From: Bacteroidota bacterium | GTDB taxonomy: Bacteria > Bacteroidota > Ignavibacteria > Ignavibacteriales > Ignavibacteriaceae | Direction of reading: 5' to 3' | Length of the DNA stretch: 35,323 nucleotides | Assembly (NCBI GenBank): GCA_021783875.1 | Contig: JAJXTM010000005.1 | Span: 1-35,323, forward strand | Part shown: in pieces, positions 14,244-35,323 of the stretch | Numbering within the stretch: the stretch's first letter is position 1 | Layout: the number at the start of each line of letters is the position of its first letter | The notes under the pieces: model-generated | What the model was told of the DNA's origin: nothing | Seen by the model: the letters and a program-made list of their open reading frames with translations, nothing else | Databases searched by the model: none | Program-made: the position numbers and the translations under genes

Positions 14244-14270
14244 TTATCGAAAAATATTTAAATTATTTTA
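14244..14270 (-). promoter_or_regulatory. Candidate sigma28 promoter for cheW-tonB_C-MCP(-hemerythrin)
   Basis: Minus strand TAAA-N15-TTCGATAA, about 60 nt upstream of cheW. Confidence 0.6.
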
Positions 14271-14391: not shown

Positions 14392-14418
14392 TAAAAATAA
14401 TCATTTATTTTTCGATAA
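14392..14418 (+). promoter_or_regulatory. Candidate sigma28 promoter for the receiver-PAS-kinase gene
   Basis: Plus strand TAAA-N15-TTCGATAA, about 50 nt upstream of ATG 14469. Confidence 0.6.
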
Positions 14419-18943: not shown

Positions 18944-19276
18944 TCACCTATAATAATTAATTAACTTTGCTTTATTTTTTAATATCGCAATTTGTTTGCC
19001 GACTTCGGCAAACTTATTTTTTCTATCTGTGTATAAATTATCGAAAGTTTCCTGAATTTGTTTAGTTAAATCAACCAATAAAGGGTTATAATTTTCTAAT
19101 TGCTGTATAGGATAGGAATTTTTCAACTGTAATTTTAAGAAATTATAACTTTCCATCAAAGTTTTTGCGCTATTAAGATTATCATCAAAGTTCAAATCAT
19201 TTACGCTTTTTAACTTTTCCAATGCTTGTTCTAATAATATTCTTAAGGAATTAATTTCATCAATTAAATTTTTCAT
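18944..19276 (-). CDS. FliT/FlgN-like flagellar export chaperone (by position and helical character)
   Basis: 110 aa, all-helical, between fliD and flgM. Confidence 0.5.
   Translation of the reverse strand: MKNLIDEINSLRILLEQALEKLKSVNDLNFDDNLNSAKTLMESYNFLKLQLKNSYPIQQLENYNPLLVDLTKQIQETFDNLYTDRKNKFAEVGKQIAILKNKAKLINYYR
19038..19064 (-). promoter_or_regulatory. Candidate sigma28 promoter inside the fliT-like ORF, driving flgM
   Basis: Minus strand TAAA CAAATTCAGGAAACT TTCGATAA (N15), about 100 nt upstream of the flgM ATG. Confidence 0.5.
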
Positions 19277-21518: not shown

Positions 21519-22334
21519 TTATCTAAATAGTGCTAAAAGGTTCTGAGGAGCAGTATTAATATTGTACAACTGAGTAGTTCCAATTTGTTGCTGAATCTGA
21601 CCTTTAGTAGCGTTCAATTGAGCCGATGCCATATCCGCATCAAACAGTCTGCTTACAGTAGAGTTAGCATTAGTAACAGCTGAAGTCAAATAGTCGCTTT
21701 TAACATTTAGTCTTTGTACCCAGTTACCTATGCTGCCGAGTGCATCCTGAACTTCACTTTGTAAACTAGTTACTGTGCCACCAATTGCTGAAACAGTTGC
21801 AGAAGTTGCACCTGTTAATGAAGCAATCTGGGATCCCAAAGTGCTCATAGTTCCAAAATTGATAGTAGATGTTTCACTTACACCCGTCTGAAATACAAAG
21901 TTTGCACCGGTTGGCACACTAGCACCACTAAGAAGATTAGTGTTATTGAATTGTGTATTTGAGAATATTGAGCTAACTTCATTGCCAAGAGCTACAATAT
22001 CATTTGCAAGGGATGTTAGGTTCTTAGTCGGGTCATTAGCATCTGTAACCTTTCCCTGAACTTGTATCAAGAGATCGTTGATACTTGAAAGAGCGGATTC
22101 AGCTGTAGATAAGATATCTTTTGCAGAACCGACGTTATTTTGAGCAGATTGCATAATAGCAATTTTTCCCTGCAAATCTTTACCAACTCTGTAGCCTGAT
22201 GTGTTATCGGCAACTGAATTGATTTGTAAACCCGTAGCAAGCTGCAACTGGGCTTTAGCTGTGTTCTGGGTTGTTAGCGCAAGAGCATTGTAAGCTAATA
22301 ACGCGTTGACGTTTGTGTTGATTTGAAATGACAT
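21519..22334 (-). CDS. fliC: Flagellin
   Basis: 271 aa; N-terminal INTNVNALLAYNALALTTQNTAKAQLQLATGLQINSVADNTSGYRVGKDLQGKI, C-terminal DADMASAQLNATKGQIQQQIGTTQLYNINTAPQNLLALFR. Confidence 0.97.
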   Translation of the reverse strand: MSFQINTNVNALLAYNALALTTQNTAKAQLQLATGLQINSVADNTSGYRVGKDLQGKIAIMQSAQNNVGSAKDILSTAESALSSINDLLIQVQGKVTDANDPTKNLTSLANDIVALGNEVSSIFSNTQFNNTNLLSGASVPTGANFVFQTGVSETSTINFGTMSTLGSQIASLTGATSATVSAIGGTVTSLQSEVQDALGSIGNWVQRLNVKSDYLTSAVTNANSTVSRLFDADMASAQLNATKGQIQQQIGTTQLYNINTAPQNLLALFR

Positions 22335-22419: not shown

Positions 22420-22446
22420 TTATCGGAGGTTGATTTTAAAAGTTTA
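22420..22446 (-). promoter_or_regulatory. Sigma28 promoter of flagellin
   Basis: Minus strand TAAA-N15-TCCGATAA, against the FliA consensus TAAA-N15-GCCGATAA. Confidence 0.75.
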
Positions 22447-26635: not shown

Positions 26636-26974
26636 ATGGACTTTATTAGAGAAAAATATGATGATGTTATTGTAGAATGCGTCAATTTGACAAGAGCTAC
26701 ATTAAAAGAGGCTGAGGAGTTTAAGAAAACGCTAACTCAAGAAATAGAAATGGGGACACTTAAAATTGTCGTTGATTTGACCGAATGTGAATTTATAGAT
26801 TCTACTTTTTTGGGAGCTTTAGTAGTCTCTCTTAAAAAGATTACTGGATTAGGCGGAGACCTGCGCCTAGTCGGGTTTCAACCGGCCGTGCATTCGATGT
26901 TTGAATTAACACGTATGTACAGAGTCTTTGAATCATTCAAGACAAAAGAAGATGCAATTAATAGTTTCAAATAG
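26636..26974 (+). CDS. STAS-domain anti-sigma factor antagonist
   Basis: 112 aa; VDLTECEFIDSTFLGALVVSLKKI...LRLVGFQPAVHSMFELTRMYRVF. Confidence 0.9.
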   Translation: MDFIREKYDDVIVECVNLTRATLKEAEEFKKTLTQEIEMGTLKIVVDLTECEFIDSTFLGALVVSLKKITGLGGDLRLVGFQPAVHSMFELTRMYRVFESFKTKEDAINSFK

Positions 26975-27079
26975 TTTTCACCATTATAATAAATATTGAT
27001 AAATTCTGCCTTTTTAGGTATATGATATTATCTTAATTATTATTGATTTTACAAGTTTTAACCAAAATTTCTGATTGCA

Positions 27080-28648
27080 ATGAGTAATACAAATCCCAAA
27101 ACCATTTTAATTATTGATGATGATGTAACGATACGAAAAATCCTAATCCATAACTTAACCAAGAAACAATATCGAGTCTTCGAAGCAGAAAATGCAAATA
27201 AAGGGTTCGAGCAATTAGCAAATAATAAAATAGATTTGGTCCTTTGTGATGTTACCATGGAAGACATGGATGGATATACGTTTTGCAAAAAAGTTCGGGA
27301 GAATGAAAATTATAGAGTGTTGCCTTTCGTGTTCGTCACAGCTAAAGATTCAATGGAAGACAAATCCAAAGCTATGGATGCTGGTGGTGATGATATTATA
27401 ACAAAACCCTTTAATGTAGATGAATTAACATTAAAAGTTCAAGCATTAATAAGGCGAACCGAAATTTACAAAGTCTATGGCGTAAAAAAGAATCTTGAGC
27501 AATCATTTGCTAGAAATGCGGCAAAAATTTTATTAGTCGACGATGATTCAACTCTTTCTAAACTCTTTCAATATAATCTTAATAAAGCCGGCTTTGAATG
27601 TGAAACAGCCTCCAGTGTAGATGAAGGTTTATATAAAGCAAAAAAAAACACACCGGATTTAATCATTTCCGATATTATGATGCCAAATATTGACGGATAC
27701 CAATTTAGGAAAATGCTTCTTTCAGAACCGGAATTAAGAGCAATTCCTTTTGTATTTCTTTCCTCTAAAAGTGATGAAGAAGATATTCTTGGAGGATATG
27801 ATTTAGATATAACAGATTATGTACTAAAAACTGCCGGACCTCGTGTTGTTGTAGCAAAAGTAACTGCGATAATCCAAAGTCTCGGTAAAGAGAGACAAAA
27901 GATCGTCAGTGAATTGCATAACGCCGCGGACTCATTGCGTATAAAAGTAGTACCGGATAATTTCCCCCAATTTCAAGGCTTTAGTATTCAACATTGGCAT
28001 CAGCCATTTCAAGGCATTCCCGGCGGAGACTTTATTGATTATTATGTACTTGACCAGGAAAATTTAGCTGTAATTCTCGGTGATGTTATGGGGAAAAAAT
28101 GGGGAGCTTGGTATTTCGCTTTCGCTTATGCCGGTTATGTCAGAAGTGCAATAAGAGTAACATTAGAAACGACAAAAGAATTTATACCAAGCCAAATACT
28201 TCAGCAAGTAAATAAATCGGTTTACCAAGATGCTAAAATTTCTGAAGTTTTTGCTACTTTATCAATTGTAATTCTAAATAATAAGACTAAATCTATTAAA
28301 TACAGCGGAGCCGGTGACCTTCCCATTATATACAAAAATCATTTATCAGGAGAAGTAAAAAAACTTCAAGCCAGGGGTCTATTACTAGGATTTGCTGAAC
28401 AGGGAAATTATGAAGATGTGTCATTAAATTTACAGGAAAACGATAAAATATTTTTAGTAACTGATGGGATTATTGAATCTAGGAATTCCACAGGAGAGCA
28501 ATACGGAACATATCAATTAACAAGTGTATTAGAAAATCTTCAAGAAAACCAAGATTCGATACTAGAGTTGAAAAACAATTTTGAAGAATTTACTCAGAAA
28601 AAATTTGAAGATGATATAAGCTTAATAGCTATAGAGTCAATTAAATAA
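27080..28648 (+). CDS. Tandem-receiver SpoIIE/PP2C-type serine phosphatase
   Basis: 522 aa; two receiver domains (LIIDDDVTIRK; ILLVDDDSTLSK) then QPFQGIPGGDFIDYY, ILGDVMGKKWGAW, VTDGIIESRN. Confidence 0.94.
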   Translation: MSNTNPKTILIIDDDVTIRKILIHNLTKKQYRVFEAENANKGFEQLANNKIDLVLCDVTMEDMDGYTFCKKVRENENYRVLPFVFVTAKDSMEDKSKAMDAGGDDIITKPFNVDELTLKVQALIRRTEIYKVYGVKKNLEQSFARNAAKILLVDDDSTLSKLFQYNLNKAGFECETASSVDEGLYKAKKNTPDLIISDIMMPNIDGYQFRKMLLSEPELRAIPFVFLSSKSDEEDILGGYDLDITDYVLKTAGPRVVVAKVTAIIQSLGKERQKIVSELHNAADSLRIKVVPDNFPQFQGFSIQHWHQPFQGIPGGDFIDYYVLDQENLAVILGDVMGKKWGAWYFAFAYAGYVRSAIRVTLETTKEFIPSQILQQVNKSVYQDAKISEVFATLSIVILNNKTKSIKYSGAGDLPIIYKNHLSGEVKKLQARGLLLGFAEQGNYEDVSLNLQENDKIFLVTDGIIESRNSTGEQYGTYQLTSVLENLQENQDSILELKNNFEEFTQKKFEDDISLIAIESIK

Positions 28649-31328: not shown

Positions 31329-31355
31329 TAAATATCATCGTTTTTTTTTCGATAA
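31329..31355 (+). promoter_or_regulatory. Candidate sigma28 promoter for the 614-aa orphan gene
   Basis: Plus strand TAAA-N15-TTCGATAA, about 75 nt before ATG 31430. Confidence 0.6.
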
Positions 31356-31429
31356 TCAATTAGGAGCATTATGTCCATTTAAAAAATGAATTTGAAAATT
31401 TTAATTAGTTTTAACTAAAAATAACGAGA

Positions 31430-33274
31430 ATGAATAATAAAATAAGCTATAGTGAAGAATTCGAGGACAATGCAATCGGTGCAATTATGTCTTCTAAATT
31501 TAAGAGCTTAGCAAAAGAATTCTTCCAATTGGATATTTCAGAAGGCTTTAACTATGAAAAGATAATTAAGGATAGCTCTCAATTATACAGCTTTAATCTA
31601 CCATTCGAGTTAAATGAGACTTTTATTCGTTTTGAAGACGCTCCAATTTTCTGGATAAAAAGATCCCCGATTATTATTTTATTAGAAAATTTTTACAAAC
31701 TTTCAATAGCCAATTTAAGCGGAAGGAATTACTATAAGACAGTTAGAGATTTTTATACAAAATGGTGGGTCATTAAGTCCGTAGAAGAAAAAAGATACTT
31801 TTCATCTTCAGCAATAAGTTATTTAGAAAAAAAAGCTAATAATAATAATATTCTTTTATTAGTATTTCATGCAATGATATTAGCTTATGATGAGTATATG
31901 TATGATCCTTTGAAATCTTTTGAACTTTTGGAACGTGCAAAGGAGAACATTAACCAATCAAGTATCAATGATGAGTATAAAAATGAAATAATTTATATAC
32001 TCAATATTTGTGAAGGATTTGTTTTTACAATTCAAAATGAATATAAGCTAGCTTATAATTATTTTGAATCAGCCTTAAAAATAAAACCAATAGGAGTGAC
32101 AGGAAAATTTTATTTTGCTTTTATTAACAGTTTAATAGATAATGATCCCATAGCAGAAGACATTTTAAACACTGTATATAGATTCGATTTATCAAGGATA
32201 GAGTATGCGATTGAACAGAACAGCACTGAAATGCTGGATCTTTTATTAAAATATCCTACTTTTAACAACTTCTTTCTATCAGCAGACTTATCATCATCTT
32301 ACGAAGTTATTTCTAACTTTTTAAGAAATATCAAGTCAATGGGCAATTATGATTTGCAAAAAATACGGGCAAACATAAATAATTTTAAAAATTTAAGTAT
32401 AGAAGATTACTACAATGAAGATACGAATTTAAATATAAATTACTTGGAAAAAATATTAAATAATTATTCAAAAAAAGAAAATGCCCTTTTCATAGGAGTA
32501 TCTGAAAAGTTACATACTAGATTCATTCAAACCATCGAGGCAATAATAAATAAAATTAAGGAAAAATATAGTTCAGAGACATTATCCAAACTTCATATAT
32601 ATGATAGTGAAATTCAAAATAAGCTGAATGAAATCCAAGCTTATACAAAAGAAAAAGATGAAGTAAAAAATAGGATTAAAGAACGCACCTCAAAAACAAT
32701 CAGTGCAATTGAAAAAAGAACTGCCGAAAACATAACAATTCTAGAAGAAAAAATTAATAATCTTCAATTTGTTGCAAATTTTGATCCTAAAGCAGCTTTT
32801 CAAAATGCGATGACTTACAATTTGATTTTGTCATTTACAGTTTTTCTGCTAGGAGGTTGTGCAGGATATACAAATAGTTCTTTCGAAGGTATTGGCTCTC
32901 TAAATTCTGCAATGGCAATAATATTAGTTAGCGGGTTAAAATGGGGCATAATAGCTTTTGGAATAGGAGTAGTGATATCTTTAGTGACTGCCGGATTAGC
33001 CGCTTTTGAAGGATCAAATCAAAAGCAAAAACTTTTTCAGAATATAAATAATTTAAAGAAAGAAAAAGATTTTCAAATTGAATATTTTAAAAAAGAAGCC
33101 GAGAACAGTGAAAGATTAAGTGAAGAAAAGATTAACAAGGCAATTGAGGATAAGAAAAAATATATCGATAAGCTGAGAAATGAAAGAGCAAACCAAGAAA
33201 AAAAATATAATGATGAATCAACAATTAAAATGGACAATGAATGCAAACCACTACAAAAGTTAATTGATTTTTAA
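31430..33274 (+). CDS. Uncharacterised coiled-coil protein with two TM helices
   Basis: 614 aa ORF; N-terminal helical region with a TPR-like segment, coiled coil, two hydrophobic helices (NLILSFTVFLLGGCAGY; KWGIIAFGIGVVISLVTAGLAAF), C-terminal coiled coil; no family recognised. Confidence 0.85.
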   Translation: MNNKISYSEEFEDNAIGAIMSSKFKSLAKEFFQLDISEGFNYEKIIKDSSQLYSFNLPFELNETFIRFEDAPIFWIKRSPIIILLENFYKLSIANLSGRNYYKTVRDFYTKWWVIKSVEEKRYFSSSAISYLEKKANNNNILLLVFHAMILAYDEYMYDPLKSFELLERAKENINQSSINDEYKNEIIYILNICEGFVFTIQNEYKLAYNYFESALKIKPIGVTGKFYFAFINSLIDNDPIAEDILNTVYRFDLSRIEYAIEQNSTEMLDLLLKYPTFNNFFLSADLSSSYEVISNFLRNIKSMGNYDLQKIRANINNFKNLSIEDYYNEDTNLNINYLEKILNNYSKKENALFIGVSEKLHTRFIQTIEAIINKIKEKYSSETLSKLHIYDSEIQNKLNEIQAYTKEKDEVKNRIKERTSKTISAIEKRTAENITILEEKINNLQFVANFDPKAAFQNAMTYNLILSFTVFLLGGCAGYTNSSFEGIGSLNSAMAIILVSGLKWGIIAFGIGVVISLVTAGLAAFEGSNQKQKLFQNINNLKKEKDFQIEYFKKEAENSERLSEEKINKAIEDKKKYIDKLRNERANQEKKYNDESTIKMDNECKPLQKLIDF

Positions 33275-34915: not shown

Positions 34916-35323
34916 ATGATTTCTGAGAAAGATAAGATAAATATTAAAGCTCCCCACGGTTCTTCTTTGTCTTGCAAGGGGTGGATACAGGAAGCAGCGA
35001 TGCGAATGTTAATGAATAATCTTGATCCTGAAGTAGCAGAAAAACCCGAAGAGCTAATCGTTTATGGAGGAAGCGGGAAAGCTGCCCGCAACTGGGATGC
35101 ATACGAAGCTATAATAAAATCTCTGAAAAATCTTGAAAATGATGAAACACTTTTAGTACAATCAGGTAAACCAGTTGGAGTTTTTAAAACCCATTTAAAT
35201 GCACCAAGAGTTATCATATCTAATGCAATGCTAGTACCCAAATGGGCTACATGGGAAGAATTCAGGAAATTAGAACAATTAGGTCTAACTATGTTTGGAC
35301 AAATGACAGCGGGAAGTTGGATT
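34916..35323 (+). CDS. hutU: Urocanate hydratase, N-terminal part (truncated by window end)
   Basis: Reading frame from ATG 34916 preceded by [73 protein letters not shown]...[12 protein letters not shown]. Confidence 0.93.

Follow-up and report, generated by a model that had tools for sequence, protein, structure and literature searches.

Why should a gene for a membrane protein of no recognized flagellar family be preceded by a promoter of the flagellar sigma28 type? The question is posed by an intact open reading frame (ORF) of 614 aa that starts with ATG (31430 to 33274, + strand) in a 35,323-nucleotide stretch of Ignavibacteriales DNA, the whole of which is referred to here as the window. 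An earlier note on this DNA had described both the ORF and a putative promoter at 31329 to 31355, and we found each of them at exactly these positions.

A sigma28-type promoter upstream of the gene

The sigma28 (FliA)-type box before the gene, TAAA-N15-TTCGATAA, lies on the + strand with its -35 element at 31329 to 31332 and its -10 element at 31348 to 31355. The full element reads TAAATATCATCGTTTTTTTTTCGATAA, and the ATG of the 614-aa ORF is 74 bp downstream. Its spacing is identical to that of the window's flagellin promoter and to that of the Escherichia coli sigma28 (FliA) consensus, which is TAAAGTTT-n11-GCCGATAA (PMC2859248). The flagellin promoter (TAAACTTTTAAAATCAACCTCCGATAA; 22420 to 22446, - strand) has the same architecture and is located 86 bp upstream of a 271-aa flagellin gene (21519 to 22334, - strand; Pfam PF00669/PF00700).

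Four exact matches to TAAA-N15-TTCGATAA are present in the window, where 0.08 would be expected, and none of 100 shuffles reached 4. Apart from the 614-aa gene, the matches precede cheW (14244 to 14270, - strand), a receiver-PAS-kinase gene (14392 to 14418, + strand), and an 86-aa flgM-like ORF (19038 to 19064, - strand; inside a small ORF preceding flgM), in agreement with the earlier observation that these elements share one spacing and one -10 sequence. The rest of the 2.83-Mb genome contains six further exact matches, a number equal to the backwards control count for the whole genome. The broader pattern TAAA-N17-CGATAAT was matched 26 times genome-wide, vs 12 times in the backwards control; only 6 of the 26 matches lay between genes and had an ORF on the same strand no more than 300 bp away. 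Four of these six are in the window, before fliC, cheW, the receiver-PAS-kinase gene, and the 614-aa gene.

The 5' leader (31356 to 31429, + strand) carries TTAGGA right after the -10 element. In the gene's genus, the conserved form at this position (31356 to 31370 of the window) is TTTAGGA, and fliC leaders carry TTGAGGA (in the window, - strand below 22419, and in locus L150). An Rfam search of the leader detected no RNA. A small ORF within this untranslated leader was considered and dismissed for lack of conservation. A terminator scan between the 614-aa gene and the adenosine deaminase gene that follows it found none, with a similar scan background.

The sigma factor FliA

On contig C313 of the window's genome, an FlhG/YlxH-type gene is immediately followed by one for a 209-aa sigma factor. 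The match of this protein to the FliA/WhiG model is limited to positions 2 to 78 and 124 to 223, and the protein would be the natural reader of these sigma28 promoters. As a presence marker, the FliA/WhiG model itself (TIGR02479) was uninformative (i.e., all genomes matched it through RpoD/RpoS-like sigma factors, none above the cutoff), and presence or absence was scored instead with the FliA of the window's genome. On this basis, the order's FliA is present in 79 of 114 genomes, following flagellin. The sigma28 motif together with the FliA of the Ignavibacteriales is usable for annotating the flagellar regulon of the order. Two features of this sigma factor and its sites may be recorded: sigma region 3 appears as if reduced (G000, contig C313, 3603 to 4229; L104, 1183 to 1812), and CGATAA is kept in the order's FliA promoters while the preceding GC is not.

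Conservation of the promoter before orthologues

Relatives of the gene were gathered by whole-genome search, and 79 orthologous ORFs with upstream DNA were scored for a sigma28 box. A score of at least 9/10 was reached in 58 of the 79 upstream regions. When their antisense strands were scored, 1 of 79 did so, as did 3.5% of dinucleotide shuffles. The spacer was nearly always exactly 15 nucleotides, most boxes were located 35 to 95 bp before the start, and the box was kept even in a GC-rich genome (L066). Among the other genes of the same loci, 41 of 502 (8%) had a box, many of them being flagellar/chemotaxis or operon-head genes.

In 16 of the 21 exceptions, the box was found instead before the first gene of the apparent operon. 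Fourteen were Melioribacteraceae-type loci, in which the box precedes a gene for a 210- to 217-aa protein, followed by a PAS histidine kinase gene and then by the family gene; in one other exception the gene lies behind a boxed hemerythrin gene and in another behind a boxed cheW. The remaining exceptions were accounted for by the end of a contig, a single weak box, and second copies.

The 210- to 217-aa operon-head protein (MLEKIVNIS..., with a SISPAT motif; L148, 287 to 925; orthologues in L047, L049, L054, L055, and L109 to L118) had no Pfam match. Extra copies of the family were seen in G035 (contigs C307 and C55) and G044 (contig C78). The box is present before the G035 C307 copy and absent from the tandem pair on G035 C55 and from the G044 C78 copy; the G044 copy contains an internal stop.

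Co-occurrence of the family with flagellin and FliA

The protein family is confined to the order Ignavibacteriales. No member was found outside the order in a search of 396 genomes across the phylum, and matches elsewhere in the class were weak and involved TPR residues only. A related-locus search of genome contigs matched only the two nearest metagenome-assembled genomes.

The 114 genomes scored for co-occurrence belong to the order and are >=90% complete (the window's own was taken in as well). Among the 114, the family was present in 77 and flagellin in 76: 74 genomes had both, 35 had neither, 3 had the family only, and 2 had flagellin only. With respect to the order's FliA, 76 genomes had both, 34 had neither, 1 had the family only, and 3 had FliA only. 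Fisher values were 2e-23 for flagellin and 2e-24 for FliA, both of which ignore shared ancestry. More telling than these values are the joint losses within genera, joint presence and joint absence being split inside at least five of them (g1, g8, g13, g33, and g43). In one genome (G344), there was no flagellin and both fliA and the family gene contained internal stop codons, so that its flagellar regulon looks to be decaying. Another genome (G261) likewise has an internal TAA in both genes, with flagellin retained.

Orthologues that lack the element and are widespread in non-flagellated relatives had been named in advance as evidence against a flagellar assignment. What we found is that orthologues keep the element (58 of 79, with 16 more at the operon head) and that the family is absent from non-flagellated relatives. 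Given this comparative evidence, the gene almost certainly belongs to the FliA/sigma28 (late-class) flagellar regulon of the Ignavibacteriales, and the earlier suggestion of an undescribed late-class member appears to stand. In its promoter architecture, in the company of flagellin, cheW, and flgM, and in its loss with fliA, it resembles the class 3 genes of the FliA regulon; it differs in that its product is not known from any described class 3 set. Since the family is missing from approximately 110 flagellated genomes outside the order but within the class, the protein is an accessory rather than a core part of the flagellum.

Predicted structure of the protein

AlphaFold modeling with 40 homologues (mean pLDDT, 88) predicted a TPR-type solenoid carried by a long coiled coil of antiparallel arms, at the end of which is a two-helix membrane hairpin. 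The alpha-solenoid of TPR-type repeats comprises residues 40 to 356 (31547 to 32497, + strand) and is also indicated by the family profile, which matches TPR proteins at 197 to 254, and by TPR models that match members of the family. It is followed by a long helix that forms the first coiled-coil arm (residues 358 to 443; 32501 to 32758, + strand), the membrane hairpin (helices 453 to 482 and 491 to 526; 32786 to 33007, + strand), and the second coiled-coil arm (residues 527 to 613; 33008 to 33268, + strand). The same fold was obtained for the orthologue from Melioribacter roseus (28% identity), giving a pLDDT of 88 in two distant members. The description given beforehand is borne out, i.e., a TPR-like helical N terminus and two hydrophobic helices with long coiled coils on both sides.

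Because there is a single hydrophobic hairpin and no N-terminal signal, both soluble parts should be cytoplasmic, the topology placing the second arm on the same side as the N terminus. The hairpin, with its signature GGxAGYSN...GLKWG, is the most conserved region of the protein (mean conservation, 0.47 to 0.50 vs 0.32 to 0.40 for the solenoid and coils). This would point to a particular partner in the membrane and not to simple anchoring.

TPR repeats, midway along the N-terminal half, were the only named feature found in sequence searches of Pfam, NCBIfam, and the PDB. As previously supposed, there was no match to a flagellar or chemotaxis family in Pfam or NCBIfam, and no methyl-accepting chemotaxis protein (MCP) signaling, CheW, or motor domain was detected. 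The structure and profile searches proposed at the outset returned only TPR-type matches and no curated family for the whole protein. Foldseek matches in the PDB were only partial and generic TPR-solenoid matches (query TM-scores, approximately 0.2), and no functional twin was therefore identified. A weak local resemblance to DUF4407 (PF14362) and LapA-type membrane/coiled-coil proteins extends over the membrane helix and coiled coil; DUF4407 was rejected because its score (12.2 bits) is far under the curated cutoff (31.3 bits). As the protein contains no catalytic domain, its role is assigned by association.

Genomic neighborhood of the family

In most relatives, the family gene comes first in a run of sugar-nucleotide, glycosyltransferase, and methyltransferase genes, all on one strand and with fliC at the end. 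There were 36 cases of a family gene and a listed flagellin match on one contig within 40 kb, in a set drawn from orthologues whose contigs are in the flagellin table rather than sampled at random; in 33 of them, the two genes shared a strand and fliC was the downstream one, at a distance of 0.2 to 35 kb (median, 12 kb). One genome (G029) is a clear exception, its flagellins being on another contig. In another (G030), the family gene is 186 bp before fliC with no glycosyltransferase gene between them. Counted with a small seed set, sugar/glycosyltransferase genes were downstream on the same strand at 38 of 63 loci, downstream on the opposite strand at none of the 63, and upstream within 6 kb at 4 of the 63. 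Many of the 25 loci without a downstream sugar gene end within 3 kb.

The arrangement is illustrated by M. roseus, a motile member of the Ignavibacteriae (PMC3534657). Here, a box is followed by genes for a 212-aa protein, a PAS kinase, and the family protein, and then by those for a UDP-GlcNAc 2-epimerase, an NDP-sugar epimerase, FdtA, RmlD, two TPR-methyltransferases, a 1,462-aa GT2/GT4 protein, and a GT2-TPR protein (the sugar genes being named by identity to L067 orthologues). After the GT2-TPR gene there is a new sigma28 box, followed by fliC, fliS, and fliD. Islands in other genomes contain genes for UDP-galactopyranose mutase, a DegT aminotransferase, FkbM and TylF methyltransferases, and GT9, as well as radical SAM/SPASM proteins and a pyruvyl transferase. 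Judged by these gene contents, the run would be, in everything but proof, a flagellin glycosylation island. Some islands also include, upstream of fliC, very large proteins of 2,100 to 2,700 aa (L149, 6540 to 14630; L153, 5628 to 11966; L156, 6628 to 13833), that of L149 being a multidomain protein with glycosyltransferase, methyltransferase, and TPR parts.

In the window's own genome, the 614-aa gene is followed by an adenosine deaminase gene, the contig ends 2 kb later at 35323, and flagellin is upstream on the other strand. The earlier description of the gene as an orphan is therefore valid for the window's contig only; most relatives have it directly ahead of the putative glycosylation island. 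A search of this genome's contigs (approximately 80% complete) for a homologue of the GT2-TPR protein, the last of the island, gave none that was clear, the best match having 32% identity over 89 residues. As the island was not seen in the window's genome, the functional claim rests on relatives.

Possible roles of the protein

The gene is almost certainly switched on with the filament genes and usually heads a set of sugar-transfer genes before fliC; the protein thus most likely helps to prepare, and probably to glycosylate, flagellin at the membrane. The earlier guess of a motility accessory, sensor, or envelope scaffold is narrowed by this synteny to flagellin handling or glycosylation. Our favored reading, held with modest confidence, is that of a late-class scaffold in the inner membrane, presenting either flagellin or the enzymes that glycosylate it before export takes place; for a scaffold role in glycosylation as such, we consider the case evenly balanced. 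FliA would make the protein and flagellin at the same time. The protein would be held in the inner membrane by its two-helix hairpin with both ends in the cytoplasm, and its solenoid head, carried on the antiparallel coiled-coil stalk, may bind either flagellin or the island's own TPR-containing glycosyltransferases. By keeping these steps close to the export gate, the hairpin would allow flagellin to be modified before its secretion.

Two described systems offer points of comparison. Flagellin glycosylation by the Aeromonas Maf system is cytoplasmic and takes place before export (PMC4065374). In the Maf and flagellar glycosylation islands of Aeromonas, Campylobacter, Pseudomonas, and Clostridium, a block of sugar-nucleotide and transferase genes is likewise located beside fliC; unlike the cytoplasmic Maf enzymes, the new protein is a membrane protein without a Maf or other catalytic domain (no Pfam or NCBIfam match to the Maf domain in any of 40 members). 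The flagellin O-glycosyltransferase FlmG of Caulobacter consists of a TPR domain, which is its flagellin-binding part, and a GT-B domain (PMC7591256). The new protein similarly has an N-terminal TPR-type solenoid and a gene tied to flagellin and sugar-modification genes, and by analogy its head may bind flagellin in the cytoplasm. It differs from FlmG in the absence of the glycosyltransferase domain (no GT-B C-terminal domain was found, the C-terminal half being a coiled-coil stalk and membrane hairpin), in its sigma28 box, and in its restriction to the Ignavibacteriales.

The main rival to a glycosylation scaffold is an export factor with no sugar role, the TPR head docking flagellin (a late substrate) or flagellin-FliS and passing it to the export gate, with the sugar genes as mere neighbors of fliC. 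We think this rather unlikely, given that sugar genes stand between the family gene and fliC behind the same promoter at most loci with enough sequence and that other flagellated orders of the class manage without the family; it does gain from fliC being a steadier partner than the sugar genes and from the loss of the family along with flagellin, and the gene pair of G030, with nothing in between, also fits it. More doubtful is a signaling or motor accessory, i.e., a cytoplasmic scaffold at the pole or C-ring whose partners would be the late-class PAS kinase, CheW, or chemoreceptors. The Melioribacteraceae genes codirectional behind a PAS histidine kinase gene, the single genes behind hemerythrin and cheW, and the other sigma28 boxes of the window, which precede cheW and a kinase gene, would suit such a role; however, these upstream partners vary between families while the downstream sugar genes and fliC are constant, and the protein has no MCP, CheW, or motor domain.

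It is improbable that the protein assembles surface polysaccharide and has only its promoter in common with flagellar genes. The types of sugar and glycosyltransferase genes found downstream also serve O-antigen or exopolysaccharide synthesis, but several genera have lost the family along with flagellin and FliA, and no Wzx/Wzy/Wzz-type gene was found among the proteins scanned. Finally, a chance match of the promoter pattern before a gene unrelated to flagella has next to no probability left. The sequence is TA rich and about half of the genome-wide pattern matches are at control level; comparative genomics nevertheless refutes this explanation, through the exact spacing conserved before orthologues, even in high-GC L066, and through the co-loss with flagellin.

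Returning to the membrane scaffold, we tentatively put forward a more specific form of it. A membrane-tethered, nonenzymatic TPR scaffold might gather flagellin and the TPR-bearing glycosyltransferases and methyltransferases at the export gate and physically couple glycosylation to secretion, in essentially all flagellated Ignavibacteriales and in none known elsewhere. Flagellin glycosylation islands are already known and have been described as soluble cytoplasmic enzymes. A membrane-tethered TPR protein that would be transcribed at the same time as flagellin and whose gene heads the glycan genes makes the coupling of flagellin modification to export testable. Flagella have received little study in the Ignavibacteriales, of which M. 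roseus, at least, is in culture, is motile, and has a closed genome.

Between the flagellar cluster and the 614-aa gene, genes for a STAS protein and a receiver-SpoIIE phosphatase adjoin each other (26636 to 28648 of the window), forming a possible partner-switch module.
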